41,327 nt of DNA, taken from Caryophanales bacterium (GTDB lineage: Bacteria; Bacillota_I; Bacilli_A; RFN20; CAG-826). The DNA is taken from assembly GCA_016290145.1 (NCBI GenBank), contig JAEESX010000005.1:1-41327 (forward strand). Direction: 5' to 3'. The translations under genes were made by a program, and so were the position numbers. This document shows, in pieces, positions 4,964 to 27,150 of this stretch (position 1 is its first letter; every line of letters starts with the position of its first letter). The notes beneath the pieces were generated by a model that searched no databases, was not told where the DNA came from, and saw only the letters and a list, made by a program, of their open reading frames with translations.

Positions 4964-5419
4964 TTAGTTCTCCTTTGGAGGCAAGATTTCATCTTGTAAT
5001 TTGAACATTACTGCCTCATCTTCTTTTGTCATGTGGTCATAGCCTAATAAGTGCAATAACCCATGAACGAACAAGAAAGATAATTCTCTTTCTAATGGAT
5101 GTCCGTATTCCTCTGCTTGCGCTTTCGCTTTTTCGACACTGATATAAATGTCGCCAAGAGGAACGGGACCATGACCATGGAGCTTTTCATCCCTTTGTTC
5201 ATCTCCATCTAAGAACGCGAAGGAGATAACATCTGTTGGACGATCAACATTGCGATATTCTCTGTTCAATTGGTGAATAAATGTATTATCCACTAAAGTG
5301 ACACTCAAAATGGCTTCGCAACTTAATCCTAAGTGATTAAAAGTCTTTTCGAGTAAGCCGAGATAAATATCTTCGTATTTCTCGTATCCAGAAACTTGTG
5401 AATCGAAATCTAATTCCAT
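4964..5419 (-). CDS. ybeY: Endoribonuclease YbeY
   Basis: HGLLHLLGYDH motif; gene order. Confidence 0.97.
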   Translation of the reverse strand: MELDFDSQVSGYEKYEDIYLGLLEKTFNHLGLSCEAILSVTLVDNTFIHQLNREYRNVDRPTDVISFAFLDGDEQRDEKLHGHGPVPLGDIYISVEKAKAQAEEYGHPLERELSFLFVHGLLHLLGYDHMTKEDEAVMFKLQDEILPPKEN

Positions 5420-5453: not shown

Positions 5454-6665
5454 CTAATCATTTTCATCACTCTTTTTGTGGGAATTGATAGAATTAGCGA
5501 TTTTCACTTTAACAATGTTAAATTCTTCAATTTTCTCATTGAAAGAGAATAGATCTTGTAAGGTTCTTAGAATTGCCACAGAAATACAGCTATAGAAGAT
5601 GATGTATGGGAAGGATGATAAACCACATAATCTCATCGTTAGTAAAGCGGTCAAAACAAGCAATCCAGCATAAAGATAAGAACATGTCATTTTGATGTAA
5701 CTATAACTATATGCTTTACTATGTAAAATCCTCGCTTTATTCTGTAGTTCTTCACCATTTTCTGCGCTATCTAAATCCTCTTCTAATTCATTCACTTCTT
5801 CCGCTTTCGCTTTGAGAATTGGAGAGACCACTAACCACTCAAAAACGGAGATGGCAATTGGTATCAAAACGAGCATAATGTTTCTAATGTCATTAAGTAA
5901 CACCACTGCGCTGAGTCCGATAAGAATCACGAATAAGAGAATGAGATTAATTGGCGAAGATAACGCTAGGCGTTTGTAGTTCTCAAATCTCGTTAAATAC
6001 TCACGATACCCTTTTAAAGGAAGATTGTTCTCTGAGAAGAAGAATTGGTCTAACTTCTTCATCACGTTAAAGCATAATGCTTTCATAAGTAATTCTAGGA
6101 CAATAGCAACGGATAAGAATATCGCTGGAACGTATATCGGCGTTCCATCTTTGACAAAGTAAACACCTACTGCTGCGCACACCGCGACAAGAACTTGGAC
6201 AAATCCGAGAAGAACGCTTGTGCTAGTCTTCAAAGGATTAACTTGCTTAACCGGACAGTTTCTCTTCTCAAAAGATTCCACCATTAAGCCAGTTCCATCC
6301 CATATATCGATGAACTTCTTCACGGACATAGAACAGTTTCCTCTTCTTGGATCAAGGTAATATACCTTCTTCCATCTTACTTTAGTCACTACCACTGCGT
6401 GTTTAGCCCCATTTTTAAGCTCAATGGAAAGAATTAATGGAAAAGATGAGCAATTGCTTAATTCTTCCTTATTAGGAACCTCAAAAGCCGTGAAATTAAT
6501 TCCATGCTCATATCCTTTTTCCACTAAATCGCTATACGAGTAATATCCATGTGCCTCATCCTGCGGCAAGAATAGATAGTTTTTATCTTTGTTGATTTTA
6601 GCGAGAACCATCTTAAGACAAGCAAATCCGCAGTCGTCTTTTTGAATCTGTGGGATATAAAACAT
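5454..6665 (-). CDS. Membrane protein with N-terminal C39 (bacteriocin-processing type) peptidase domain and ABC-exporter-like TM region, no ATPase domain
   Basis: N-terminus MFYIPQIQKDDCGFACLKMVL (Gln and Cys of C39), KHAVVV (His), YYLDPRRG (Asp), then about six hydrophobic segments. The protein ends without Walker A/B or LSGGQ. Start at 6665 follows GGAGGT. Confidence 0.82.
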   Translation of the reverse strand: MFYIPQIQKDDCGFACLKMVLAKINKDKNYLFLPQDEAHGYYSYSDLVEKGYEHGINFTAFEVPNKEELSNCSSFPLILSIELKNGAKHAVVVTKVRWKKVYYLDPRRGNCSMSVKKFIDIWDGTGLMVESFEKRNCPVKQVNPLKTSTSVLLGFVQVLVAVCAAVGVYFVKDGTPIYVPAIFLSVAIVLELLMKALCFNVMKKLDQFFFSENNLPLKGYREYLTRFENYKRLALSSPINLILLFVILIGLSAVVLLNDIRNIMLVLIPIAISVFEWLVVSPILKAKAEEVNELEEDLDSAENGEELQNKARILHSKAYSYSYIKMTCSYLYAGLLVLTALLTMRLCGLSSFPYIIFYSCISVAILRTLQDLFSFNEKIEEFNIVKVKIANSINSHKKSDEND

Positions 6666-6725
6666 AAATGTACCTCCTACTAAACACATAGGGGGTACAC
6701 TCTTACTATTTTTGCAAAATATTTT
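6666..6725 (-). promoter_or_regulatory. Conserved promoter/leader block, copy A: AAAATATTTTGCAAAA-N13-ACCCCCTATGT-N8-GGAGGT-N6-ATG
   Basis: Near-identical in sequence and spacing to the block upstream of comEA (26619-26677). Confidence 0.75.
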
Positions 6726-20667: not shown

Positions 20668-22722
20668 ATGGCAACAAAATTCGAAAAAGTGACAGAATAC
20701 ATCGCTGTCGCAGCTCAATTATTGAGCACATCCCAAAGAATGGAAGATATATTCCATTCCACGATGAAGAGAAACGAAAAGAAGATCGCCGTTGAATACG
20801 TCAATCACAAAGGTAAGATTAAACACTACCGCTACAGCAAACTTCGTTCACACGCATATGAATTAGCGAGTGTTTTATCTCAATACTTAATTCAACAACC
20901 AAAGAATGTCCCAATCATTTTAAAGTGTGCGAACTCTCCACACTGGTGTGAAATCTTCTGGGCAATTTTAATGTGTGGTTATAAACCACTCCTCATCGAC
21001 GCTAGAACTTCTAAAGAAGGTGCTATCCACGTCGCAGAAATGAGCAAGGCCTTAGCAATTATTACAGATGATAATAATCAATATCCAATCACTAAGATTT
21101 CCTTATCTGATTTATTAGAAGAAAAACATCACTATTCATTCTCACCAAACTGGGAAAACGAAGTTATCTTCTCCTCCAGTGGTACAACAGGTGATGTCAA
21201 ATTAATGGTCTTTAACGGTGCTAACTTAGTGGCACAAATTTGCTCCGCTTTAGAAATGGGCAAAGAGACAATGGATATTATGTATCCAGACTCCATGGGC
21301 AAATTAAAAATCTTGGCTATGATTCCATTCCACCACATCTTTGGTTTCGTCGCCGTCTTCTTATGGTTCTCGTTCTATGGTAAGACAATCGTCTTCCCAG
21401 CCAGCACCACACCAAGTGATATCCAATATATCTGTCAAAAATGCGGTGTCACCCACGTCTTTAGTGTTCCACTATTCTGGGATTCTTTAGCCTTAGGCAT
21501 TTCCCGTAAAGCGGAAATGGAAGGACCACAAAAAGCTGCCTTATTAGATAAAATGATCGGCTATAACACCGGTAAAATTACAAAAGAAGAAGCAGGCATT
21601 GCCGCAAGCAAAGTTGCTCGTGATACAGTCCAAAAGAAATTACTCGGTAACAAAGTTAAATATTGTATTTCCGGTGGCGGTTTCTTATCTAGAGAAACTC
21701 TTACCGCAATCAATGGCTTAGGTTACAACTTATACAATGGTTATGGTATGACCGAAATCGGTGTCTCCTCTGTTGAATTATCACCAGAAGTCGAAACAAG
21801 ATTAAAAGGTCGTATTGGTAAACCATTGCATGGTGTTGAATACAAGATTGAAGGTAATGCACAAAAGGGTGAATTATTAGTTAGATCTAACGCCATCCAT
21901 ATTAGAGAAATCATTAACGGCGTTGAACAACCAGCTACATTAACTCCAGAAGGCTTCTTCCGCACTGGCGATATCGCTGAAGCCGACCCAACCGGTGGCT
22001 ACTACCTCAAAGGTCGTATCAAAGATATCATTATTAACGCTGATGGTGAAAACATCTTCCCAGATGAACTTGAAATTTATTTCAAGGATTTACCACTTGT
22101 CCAACATTTATGTGTTTTAGGTTACTCCCCAGAGCACAATAACGTGGAAAAGATTGGCTTAGTCTTAGAACTCGACAACAAGGCTAACGATGAAGACATC
22201 GCTAAGATCAAAGCACAAATCGAAGAAATCCAACCAAAATTACCACATAAAGTGAAACTTGATGGCATCTTCCTCTCAAGAGGAAAACTCCCACTAGCGA
22301 ACAATATGAAGGTCAAACGCTTCCTCATCAAGAAGGGTTTAGAAGAAAACAGCAACGAATATGTTTCTATCGATAACAAGAAAGAAGCAAGAACATTCGA
22401 AGGCTTCAATCCAGAAGACATCGAAAGCATCTTAAAACCAATGAGACATATTTTCAGTGAAGTTCTTATCCTACCTGAGTTCAAAATTGATGATGATGCA
22501 CACTGGATTAATGATTTAGGCGGCGACTCCATGAGTTATGTCGAATTAATCCGTGACGTTCAAGACCAATTTGACATTGAATTCCCAGAGTCACTACTCA
22601 CCGGTTCTATGGCCACAATAAACGATTTCGTTTACGAGATCGCAAAACTCAAATATGGTGAACCTAAAAAAGCGAAAAAGGCCGCTAAACCTGTAAAGAA
22701 GGAAAAAAATGCAAAGAAATAA
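20668..22722 (+). CDS. AMP-binding (ANL) acyl-adenylating enzyme with fused C-terminal acyl carrier protein domain
   Basis: SSSGTTGDVKL, NGYGMTEIG, RTGDIAE, KGRIKDIIINADGENIFPDELE; C-terminal ACP LGGDSMSYVELIRDVQDQFDIEFPE; Lys-rich tail. Confidence 0.88.
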   Translation: MATKFEKVTEYIAVAAQLLSTSQRMEDIFHSTMKRNEKKIAVEYVNHKGKIKHYRYSKLRSHAYELASVLSQYLIQQPKNVPIILKCANSPHWCEIFWAILMCGYKPLLIDARTSKEGAIHVAEMSKALAIITDDNNQYPITKISLSDLLEEKHHYSFSPNWENEVIFSSSGTTGDVKLMVFNGANLVAQICSALEMGKETMDIMYPDSMGKLKILAMIPFHHIFGFVAVFLWFSFYGKTIVFPASTTPSDIQYICQKCGVTHVFSVPLFWDSLALGISRKAEMEGPQKAALLDKMIGYNTGKITKEEAGIAASKVARDTVQKKLLGNKVKYCISGGGFLSRETLTAINGLGYNLYNGYGMTEIGVSSVELSPEVETRLKGRIGKPLHGVEYKIEGNAQKGELLVRSNAIHIREIINGVEQPATLTPEGFFRTGDIAEADPTGGYYLKGRIKDIIINADGENIFPDELEIYFKDLPLVQHLCVLGYSPEHNNVEKIGLVLELDNKANDEDIAKIKAQIEEIQPKLPHKVKLDGIFLSRGKLPLANNMKVKRFLIKKGLEENSNEYVSIDNKKEARTFEGFNPEDIESILKPMRHIFSEVLILPEFKIDDDAHWINDLGGDSMSYVELIRDVQDQFDIEFPESLLTGSMATINDFVYEIAKLKYGEPKKAKKAAKPVKKEKNAKK

Positions 22723-24065: not shown

Positions 24066-24090
24066 CCAAAAACTACATAAAAATGTAGTT
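24066..24090 (-). terminator. Intrinsic terminator overlapping the comEC stop codon
   Basis: Reverse strand AACTACAT-TTTT-ATGTAGTT-TTTGG. Confidence 0.55.
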
Positions 24091-26088
24091 AGAATATGTA
24101 ATTGTTCCCTCTAAATCCGTTCTTCTAATCTTCATGCCTTCTTCCTCAAGAATCTTAAGAACCGAGTTATGAGGATGGCCGTATTTATTATTCTTCCCCA
24201 CTGAAATAATTGCAGTATCTGGTGTTACATGCTTAATAAATTCTTTACAAGTGGATGTGTTGGATCCGTGATGGCCCACTTTTAAGATGTCACAATTAAG
24301 ATTTGGATATTCTTCAATCATCTTACGTTCCACCATGATCGGTGCATCACCCATCACTAAAAAATACTTGTGCATTAGTTCAAAACCGATGACTAAAGAC
24401 TTATCATTTTCACCACTATATTCAGTGATATGAGTGTTGTAATTTGTGAATGATAAACCACCCACTGAAACAGGAAAATTATCGGTGTTTGTTCTCACCT
24501 GTTTTGCATAGAAATTCTCTTTTAGAGAATCGAGTGCGCCTGAGTGGTCAAAATCATCATGTGTAGTAATGACTAAATCAAGGTTATAGATTCTCTTCTT
24601 TTTGAGAAAAGGAATGAGTGTTTCTTTGGCTAAATCTGTATAAGTTAATCCACCCGTATCAATAAGAACTGAGGTCGTTCCTCTTCTCACTAGACAAGAG
24701 TCACCTTGTCCAACATTAATGAAGCAAACCTCTTCGCTTATGAAGTTATTGATGGGGATATGATAAAGAACTAGTGAAATGAGGAAAAAGGCCGCTATCG
24801 CTCTATAAATAGGAATAAATCCGATGCTTCGGTAGTAACAATAAGCGAGGAAGATAAAACCGAATATTAAAATCATCCATCCCGCTAACGGAGGACCATT
24901 TATCTGGAATGATATCTTAGCGAGCCAGCCTAATAGGTTTCCGAGACATTTCGTAGAAAAGTTCACAGCTCCATATATCGGAACTCCATAGAAACAAAGT
25001 AAGGAAATGACCGCTTCAAATATGAATAAAGGCGATAAAGCGAAGTTCGCTATCAAAGATAGAGGACTGGTTCCGTTATAAAATTTGAGTTCAAAAGGAA
25101 TAAAGAAAATATAGATAAGTAGTAATTCATAGGGTTTCTTAAATCTTCTTGGAATAAATGCTTCTGCCTCTCTAATACATTTGATGAAAAACGGCATCGT
25201 AAAGCCAATGATGAAACTCATTTGATATCCCAAATGATAGTCAATTAAAAGGAACATCGTTCCCACTATGGCGACTATATCTAGACCAGAAAACTTCTTC
25301 ATTAAGAATATCTCATTAATATAGCGGAAAATCTCTAGCACAATAATCCTAATAATTGTGAATCTTGGGAAAGTAAAAATGAGATATGGAAGTAGCATCA
25401 CAATTGGCAAAAACTTCCACCTTTTATCTTTGATAAAGTAAGAAAGAATAAAAGTGAAAAGACGTAGGTAAGCATAGATAAAAATGCCTGATGCATTTAT
25501 AAGCCTTCCGATATGTAATTCCTTCGCATCATCCAAGATCTCATCATCAACGTTTTCAGAGAACAATAACGCACCGATTAGGTTTCTGCTTTTCTCATCA
25601 AAATGTGAAAGGAATTTCTCTCTTCTATTTCTGATGCGAATTGGATTAGAAAACTTCACCTCAATCTTCTTAATAGATAAGGAATAATAAACACCTTTCT
25701 TATTGAGATAATCTTTGAAGTCAAACTGTGATTCTAAAGTAGTAAAAGATAAGTCTTCTTTCTTGCCTGTTATCTTTAGATAATCTCCTATCTCATACTC
25801 ATTATTTTTGTTATAGGAATATAATCTTTCGCCTCCTGAGAGTAAAAGAAAATAATTCGGGTGGGAATCGATGACTATACCACTATAGCTCTCTTTCTTT
25901 ACATCGATTTTGATATAGCTAATTCCCACACCGATTATGGTTAATCCAATAGCTAGCAAACCAAGTCTTTTCTTATACCGATAGAAGATAAGAAAAATGA
26001 TTAACACTGAAACAATGGAAAAGATGATGATTTGGTAGCGAAAGGATATGCCAATCCAAAAACAAATAAATAATAAAAAGATTATCAC
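24073..26088 (-). CDS. comEC: ComEC/Rec2 competence DNA channel protein with metallo-beta-lactamase-like domain
   Basis: Polytopic ComEC core (NASGIFIYAYLRLFTFILSYF) and MBL domain FINVGQGDSCLVRRGTTSVLIDTGG, TTHDDFDHSGAL, LKVGHHGSNTST. Confidence 0.93.
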   Translation of the reverse strand: MIIFLLFICFWIGISFRYQIIIFSIVSVLIIFLIFYRYKKRLGLLAIGLTIIGVGISYIKIDVKKESYSGIVIDSHPNYFLLLSGGERLYSYNKNNEYEIGDYLKITGKKEDLSFTTLESQFDFKDYLNKKGVYYSLSIKKIEVKFSNPIRIRNRREKFLSHFDEKSRNLIGALLFSENVDDEILDDAKELHIGRLINASGIFIYAYLRLFTFILSYFIKDKRWKFLPIVMLLPYLIFTFPRFTIIRIIVLEIFRYINEIFLMKKFSGLDIVAIVGTMFLLIDYHLGYQMSFIIGFTMPFFIKCIREAEAFIPRRFKKPYELLLIYIFFIPFELKFYNGTSPLSLIANFALSPLFIFEAVISLLCFYGVPIYGAVNFSTKCLGNLLGWLAKISFQINGPPLAGWMILIFGFIFLAYCYYRSIGFIPIYRAIAAFFLISLVLYHIPINNFISEEVCFINVGQGDSCLVRRGTTSVLIDTGGLTYTDLAKETLIPFLKKKRIYNLDLVITTHDDFDHSGALDSLKENFYAKQVRTNTDNFPVSVGGLSFTNYNTHITEYSGENDKSLVIGFELMHKYFLVMGDAPIMVERKMIEEYPNLNCDILKVGHHGSNTSTCKEFIKHVTPDTAIISVGKNNKYGHPHNSVLKILEEEGMKIRRTDLEGTITYSNYIFM

Positions 26089-26618
26089 GCGTGTAAGGTT
26101 ACGAAGTTTCTTACTTTACGATATGTTGCGTTACCAATGCCATACACTTCCATGAGTTGTTCAACGGTTTGAAAGACACCATTACTTGTGCGGTAACTGA
26201 CGATGGAACTCGCAATAGAAGTTGTGATTCCATTAACATTTGTTAATGTATCAGCGGTATCAGAGTTAATGTTGACCTTAGCAATAGGTTCATTATTGCA
26301 GATGTCAGTAGCGTCATATTTACTCGCGATATAGTAAGTATTTCCCGCTTTTAAAGATGCTTGCTCAAAGAACGCTAAATCGTCTGCGTTATTTGTGAGT
26401 CCGCCACCTGCTCTAATAAGATCTCCCATTGTGATTCCATCACTTAAAACATAGGTGCCAGGTTTATTGACCTCACCCTCAATTGTGTAGGCGCTCCCAC
26501 TATCTACTGTTTGCTGAGTGTTTGTGGTTTGGTTGTTATTCACTTTTGGATCAATCATCATAAATCCGATGATTAAAACTGCCGCGGCAATAACAACACC
26601 AATAATGACTTTATACAT
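26085..26618 (-). CDS. comEA: ComEA-like competence DNA receptor (TM, SLBB, helix-hairpin-helix)
   Basis: N-terminal TM, SLBB-like YTIEGEVNKPGTYVLSDGITMGDLIRAGGG, HhH KVNINSDTADTLTNVNGITTSIASSIVSYR...VYGIGNATYRKVRNFV; overlaps comEC by 4 nt. Confidence 0.92.
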   Translation of the reverse strand: MYKVIIGVVIAAAVLIIGFMMIDPKVNNNQTTNTQQTVDSGSAYTIEGEVNKPGTYVLSDGITMGDLIRAGGGLTNNADDLAFFEQASLKAGNTYYIASKYDATDICNNEPIAKVNINSDTADTLTNVNGITTSIASSIVSYRTSNGVFQTVEQLMEVYGIGNATYRKVRNFVTLHA

Positions 26619-26677
26619 AAAAAGACCTCCTACTTAATACATAGGGGGTCTATTTATTATTCTTTTGCAAATTATTT
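26619..26677 (-). promoter_or_regulatory. Conserved promoter/leader block, copy B: AAAATAATTTGCAAAA-N13-ACCCCCTATGT-N8-GGAGGT-N6-ATG
   Basis: Identical spacing and near-identical conserved elements to 6666-6725. Confidence 0.75.
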
Positions 26678-27150
26678 TATTTTTTGCTGCCGATGCTGAT
26701 GATTTGCACTTTATAAGGCTTAATAGCCTTAACTTCGACGATGTCACCAACGACTTTACCTAAGATGGCTTCGCCTAATGCACATGAACTGGAGATTTTT
26801 CCTTCGAATGGATTGCTTTCGATAGAACCAACAATCATGTATTCAGCTTCTTTGTTCATTTCGATGAACTTGACTGTGACTGTGGAACCTAAGCCAACTT
26901 TATTGCTCTTGCTGTTTTCTTCGATGATTTCAGCGTTGTTTAATGTGGCTTCGATTTCTTTAATACGAGCTTCGACTTCTGCTTGTTTTCCACGAGCGGC
27001 ATCATAGTCGGCGTTTTCAGATAAGTCACCTTGTGCACGAGCTTCTGCTAATTCACGTTTGACTTCATCACGAGCGACGTCGATGAGATAACGAAGTTCT
27101 TCTTCTAATTTTTTATATCCAGCTTTAGTTAATTTTGTTTTTTCTGCCAT
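26677..27150 (-). CDS. greA: Transcription elongation factor GreA
   Basis: LTKAGYKKLEEELRYL, ARAQGDLSENADYDAARGKQAEVEARI. Start at MAEKTKL preferred over the ORF-track start. Confidence 0.97.
   Translation of the reverse strand: MAEKTKLTKAGYKKLEEELRYLIDVARDEVKRELAEARAQGDLSENADYDAARGKQAEVEARIKEIEATLNNAEIIEENSKSNKVGLGSTVTVKFIEMNKEAEYMIVGSIESNPFEGKISSSCALGEAILGKVVGDIVEVKAIKPYKVQIISIGSKK

Follow-up and report, generated by a model that had tools for sequence, protein, structure and literature searches.

A C39 peptidase with an exporter-type membrane domain and no ATPase, preceded by a proposed control block common to competence genes in uncultured Bacilli

The window, that is the whole stretch of 41,327 nucleotides analysed here, is a complete 41 kb contig of an 850 kb metagenome-assembled genome (MAG) that is 75% complete. 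It carries an intact open reading frame (ORF), here called C39TM, which starts with an ATG after AGGAGG (Table 1). Downstream lies ybeY, followed by cdd, era, recO, glyS and dnaG, and upstream lies dnaJ, with a terminator-like hairpin between dnaJ and C39TM. With ybeY and dnaJ as its neighbours, the gene has no adjacent nucleotide-binding domain (NBD). A Pfam search matched Peptidase_C39 over residues 3-131 (E=4.8e-14) and no NBD family in the 403-aa product. On the plus strand of the same window (20668-22722), a 684-aa protein is by eye AMP-ligase-like with a C-terminal acyl-carrier-like domain.

Table 1 Positions of the features discussed. Coordinates are those of the window unless a locus (L) is named.
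Feature	Position	Strand	Basis or remark
Gene of the NBD-less protein with C39 and membrane domains (C39TM)	5454..6665	minus	403 aa, stop included in span
C39 peptidase domain, residues 1-132	6270..6665	minus	Pfam PF03412, conservation, AlphaFold2 model
Catalytic codons	Q6 6648-6650, C12 6630-6632, H89 6399-6401, D105 6351-6353	minus	
Predicted six-helix exporter-type membrane domain and C-terminal helix, residues 147-402	5460..6227	minus	AlphaFold2, Foldseek, conservation
Hairpin TGTACCCCCTAT[GTGTTTA]GTAGGAGGTACA pairing with Shine-Dalgarno AGGAGG (6673-6678)	6669..6699	minus	
Conserved TTGCAA box, -35-like, about 16 nt upstream of CCCCCTAT	6712..6717	minus	Six-leader alignment
Block matching the C39TM leader, upstream of comEA-comEC	26615..26678	minus	77% identity over 64 nt
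comEA (26085-26618) and comEC (24073-26088), proposed to be co-regulated	24073..26618	minus	Pfam/NCBIfam
ybeY, neighbour downstream of C39TM, followed by cdd, era, recO, glyS, dnaG	4964..5419	minus	Conserved syntenic partner
Tad-like pilus operon	L255 5816-10410 (G000:C33)		Also L256-L274
First gene of the Tad-like operon	L255 10096-10410		NF045770 match
Gene of a 61-aa leader-like peptide, between valS and radC	L317 10829-11014 (G000:C13)		Competence block
Gene of a 101-aa protein of no known family	L156 1186-1491 (G000:C1)		Competence block

An AlphaFold2 model computed from a 41-member alignment (mean pLDDT 93.5, pTM 0.86) predicts the C39 domain at residues 1-132, followed by six long helices in a 2+2+2 exporter layout. 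The top 13 Foldseek matches of the model are all structures of PCAT1 (best E=2.8e-15), a peptidase-containing ABC transporter (PCAT), and phmmer against the PDB also returned PCAT1. A tblastn match to a Staphylococcus plasmid PCAT spans residues 3-309, so homology of the membrane domain is visible by sequence too, and the f8 ortholog L118 scores above the PF00664 cut-off. The closest NCBIfam model, that of the mycoplasma Mbov_0121 PCAT family (NF045998), aligns with the N-terminal 150 residues only and scores 38 bits against a cut-off of 500. A preliminary description of this DNA had proposed C39 Cys/His/Asp residues, about six transmembrane segments in a PCAT layout and no NBD in the product or next to it, and had suggested a comparison with PCAT1; all of this agrees with the searches and the model.

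Like PCAT1, ComA, LagD and the NF045998 family, the window protein combines an N-terminal C39 domain with the four catalytic residues (Gln, Cys, His and Asp) and, as judged from the model and Foldseek, a six-helix ABC-exporter membrane domain. However, orthologs of its kind are only about 370-450 aa long and the C-terminal NBD with Walker A/B and signature motifs is missing altogether, in the window as in all 41 loci compared; because this domain is what defines a PCAT, we do not file the protein as one. C39 proteases without an NBD are represented in NCBIfam by FapD and FilB, the latter annotated as part of a putative pilus system. Their models, with 224 and 277 positions, leave no room for an ATPase, nor for an exporter membrane domain, and their weak matches to the window protein (E=4e-5 and 9e-5, far below the family cut-offs) cover part of the C39 domain only. 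The A24 prepilin peptidases (ComC/PilD/TadV) are a possible functional analogue, being membrane proteases that cut after Gly at the cytoplasmic face, but they have an unrelated fold and use aspartic instead of cysteine chemistry; the window protein carries a C39 and not an A24 aspartic protease domain.

Relatives were found in 62 of 95 related genomes with a single-sequence search, and orthologs in 82 of 90 relatives with a profile search; a single-protein scan of genome contigs matched one rumen Bacilli MAG. Almost all genomes of the family have an ortholog without an NBD, usually as a single copy, and further families of the order have such orthologs too. In the 41-sequence alignment the mean column identity is 32% and the sole invariant columns (41/41) are Q6 (the oxyanion Gln), C12, H89 and D105. 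Since C39 peptidases use exactly these four residues for catalysis, selection appears to maintain the activity. D206, K231 and E295 are nearly invariant and lie near cytoplasmic helix ends in the model. A frameshift or assembly error hiding an NBD is ruled out, as the 41 loci come from separate genomes and all stop after the membrane domain; judged by gene families shared between loci, none of them has an adjacent NBD gene. None of the refuting conditions named in the preliminary description was observed: there is no hidden NBD, the triad is invariant and the gene is present in nearly all relatives that carry comEA. The order C39TM-ybeY-cdd-era-recO-glyS-dnaG-rpoD is common, with small variations, to all 40 relative loci fetched, a few of which have an inserted gene before ybeY. 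The upstream flank varies among relatives (dnaJ operon, rpsU/deoC side and others); in L044 (G032) three tandem similar genes, each of about 880 aa, lie directly upstream of C39TM.

Across the class, homologs from beyond the order mostly have 600-740 aa. In family f20 and the mycoplasma families, a full-length PCAT lies immediately upstream of ybeY or one gene off, followed by cdd and/or era, at a locus orthologous to that of the window gene. In f17 the only two loci long enough to judge (L107 and L110) have a PCAT near rpsU, a few genes before ybeY. Walker A is present in most full-length homologs of f20, f17 and the mycoplasma families, and L123 matches both PF00005 and PF00664. Given full-length PCATs at the ybeY locus outside the order, these sequences are most simply read as an ancestral PCAT locus whose NBD was lost in the window's order. 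The preliminary description had missed this origin: C39TM has long belonged to the ybeY-era locus and is orthologous to full-length PCATs. Mycoplasma genitalium, whose sigma-20 regulon is a recombination regulon, has in MG_390 what we take to be its ybeY-linked PCAT.

In a mycoplasma subgroup of f11 (L111-L114, L136, L137 and L139) the proteins are about 600-680 aa long with an intact triad, and no Walker A or signature motif was found in any of them; the three scanned (L111-L113) gave no ABC_tran match. In the tree the NBD-less set is split off by a branch (support 96/88), with the decayed mycoplasma set elsewhere, so the ATPase was lost at least twice. The predicted structure of a decayed mycoplasma protein is uninformative (mean pLDDT 50). 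Unlike the window protein, which lacks any such part, the L111-L114 proteins still have a C-terminal region, in decayed form. Each of these four loci has a DJ-1/PfpI-like gene ahead of the C39 gene and ybeY. For JCVI-syn3A, 0400 has been described as a YraA-like deglycase counterpart (PMC4993169), and 0401 is an uncharacterised C39 transporter that has been given a tentative lipoate role, no double-glycine peptide having been identified (PMC6609329). By gene order and these descriptions, MMSYN1_0401 likely belongs with the decayed f11 group, and its locus is likely orthologous to that of the window gene.

The 64 nt upstream of the C39TM gene and of comEA are 77% identical, as the preliminary description had noticed. 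This block carries both a -35/-10-like arrangement and a stem that pairs with the Shine-Dalgarno sequence. The C39TM hairpin has the top score among 33 window genes and was equalled by 2 of 2000 shuffles. When the leaders of six members of the proposed regulon are aligned, elements resembling TTGCAA and CCCCCTAT, and AGGAGG, recur at similar spacing. Scanning the whole MAG for the core pattern, with up to 3 mismatches allowed and the reversed sequence as control, gave four sites and none in the control; all four stand just before start codons, namely those of C39TM, comEA, dprA (L157) and the 101-aa gene (L156). Shine-Dalgarno-pairing hairpins were also scored in 283 kb of the window's own genome, in which the dprA and Tad loci had been chosen beforehand. 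Scores of at least 17 were reached by 10 of 285 ORFs, including C39TM, comEA, dprA, the 101-aa gene, the first gene of the Tad-like operon and the 61-aa peptide gene before radC. The unbiased support for a shared block is the genome-wide pattern scan together with the peptide-radC match. In other Firmicutes, radC and dprA belong to the late-competence set; the control element is shared with known late competence genes. The unknown small proteins gave no convincing Pfam match; L057 has an ORF weakly similar to the 101-aa protein (tblastn E=0.018), located between C39TM and ybeY.

The hairpin extends to relatives. With the window's own genome excluded, scores of at least 17 were found before C39TM in 15/40, comEA in 19/29 and dprA in 14/29 cases, compared with 20/322 for controls (other genes with an upstream gap); the Fisher p-values of 2e-7, 7e-14 and 1e-8, respectively, overstate independence because the genomes are related. 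The hairpin is missing in some genomes, and some stems change sequence yet still pair, for example CCACCT/AGGTGG before dprA in G008.

In the window species, the competence block is also present where the first gene of the Tad-like operon begins. This gene matches the MG284/MPN403 domain NF045770 (E=1e-18), which links it to an uncharacterised mycoplasma family. The T2SSE matches fall in this compact operon, which encodes, in order, proteins of 104 aa, about 334 aa and 128 aa, a TadA-type ATPase, two membrane proteins like TadB/TadC in size and position, a 113-aa protein and a Flp-like protein of 47-68 aa, followed by an acyl-carrier-like gene. All assignments but that of the ATPase are by position and size, and no convincing Pfam match was obtained for the minor proteins. 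The Flp-like protein starts MSEIKGQLLG, and its head, which resembles that of a prepilin (M[STG]E[IFL]K[GA]Q), is extremely conserved in these operons; the protein is a candidate substrate. Cut as MSEIKG/Q (the slash marks the proposed site), the leader would have Lys at P2 and is not a canonical double-glycine one.

The Tad ATPase is present in 48/57 genomes of the family, and the A24 prepilin peptidase (PF01478) was detected in 0/34 family genomes searched (f1). All three family genomes without C39TM are also without the Tad ATPase (Fisher p=0.003), and G040, which has no Tad ATPase, has a C39TM match that contains a stop. Families f3 and f5 keep C39TM with no Tad ATPase detected (a pilus ATPase of another type is present in G077), which weakens a strict prepilin-peptidase-only role; some genomes of other families (G057 and G073) have the Tad ATPase and no clear copy of C39TM. 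That a C39 peptidase derived from an ABC exporter took over from the usual aspartic prepilin peptidase, serving a minimal Tad-type pilus for DNA uptake in this order, is, in our estimate, fairly unlikely. Pilin processing was probably not the ancestral role, given that the mycoplasma orthologs are PCATs of full length. Of the competence role that the preliminary description put forward, the link itself is supported, by far more than the single common block and with hairpins across genera, and its pilin-like substrate is possible.

The reading that we prefer, which we regard as about equally apt to hold or to fail, is that C39TM is a membrane-tethered competence maturation peptidase, descended from a PCAT and no longer an exporter. 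The control region is common to DNA-uptake genes, and the protein hence probably trims a protein used in DNA uptake. On this view a ybeY-linked PCAT lost its ATPase domain and stopped pumping; what is left would be a membrane-bound C39 cysteine peptidase, competent for catalysis, in which the old translocation domain provides membrane anchor, dimer scaffold and substrate dock. We infer that it would be produced together with ComEA-ComEC, DprA, the Tad-like pilus and RadC, and would, at the cytoplasmic face, cut after Gly/Ala in the leader of at least one small membrane or secreted protein of the regulon. Candidate substrates are the Flp-like pilin (MSEIKG/QLLG) and the 61-aa peptide (...KVGEG/VTLAT), with MSEIKGQLLGIIL... 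and MTYRVLSKEECDTHKVGEGVTLATV... as candidate leader peptides. The 61-aa peptide was seen in one genome only; its leader has Glu at P2 and is not canonical double-glycine, and no canonical GG leader was found in the sequence scanned.

One unlikely alternative to such a maturation peptidase is a housekeeping function, as a protease or regulator linked in its action to ybeY-era-recO (translation, ribosome or membrane quality control), with the competence-like leader as a side effect. Adjacency to ybeY is ancient and near-universal, and families without any Tad ATPase keep the gene. However, the terminator-like hairpin and a start block of its own set C39TM apart from dnaJ, the leader is common to competence genes and not to the ybeY neighbours, and C39TM was not found by profile search in some fairly complete genomes (for example G010 and G033).

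C39TM might instead mature a bacteriocin-like peptide or competence pheromone, the task of ComA in streptococci, with another exporter secreting the product. Several family genomes do have full 723-735 aa C39 proteins at other sites, and the leader-like 61-aa peptide before radC has the C39TM-type control block. Still, no homolog of this peptide was found in the loci compared, and no NCBIfam family matched it. We consider a pheromone role decidedly unlikely.

Quite improbable is a half-exporter, as considered in the preliminary description, that pairs in trans with an NBD, either a shared one or one encoded on its own; it would then go on exporting its cleaved peptide. Its membrane domain is kept, and D206, K231 and E295 are conserved in the cytoplasmic loops where an NBD would couple, but nothing in the gene neighbourhoods of the 41 loci provides the partner. 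Within the window's genome, 75% complete, matches to exporter-type NBDs lie in fused proteins of 590-660 aa, its shorter ABC proteins (about 340-350 aa) resemble importer ATPases, and a separate mycoplasma group has also lost the ATPase motifs in place. Other thiol chemistry by the C39 domain, such as the lipoyl transamidation tentatively proposed for the related syn3A 0401 (PMC6609329), is highly improbable, given that the proposal includes uptake whereas the NBD-less protein has no motor, and that the C39TM control region points to DNA uptake.

If C39TM is a competence maturation peptidase, the two peptides named above are the candidates for cleavage, within a competence regulon, outlined here for uncultured Bacilli, that has a Tad-like pilus and no prepilin peptidase detected. 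The question of the C39 transporter retained in the minimal cell JCVI-syn3A is affected as well, because its relatives can do without the motor. As the ATPase was lost at least twice at one locus and the catalytic residues were kept, this lineage suggests that the conserved part of the peptidase-transporter is the scissors and not the pump.
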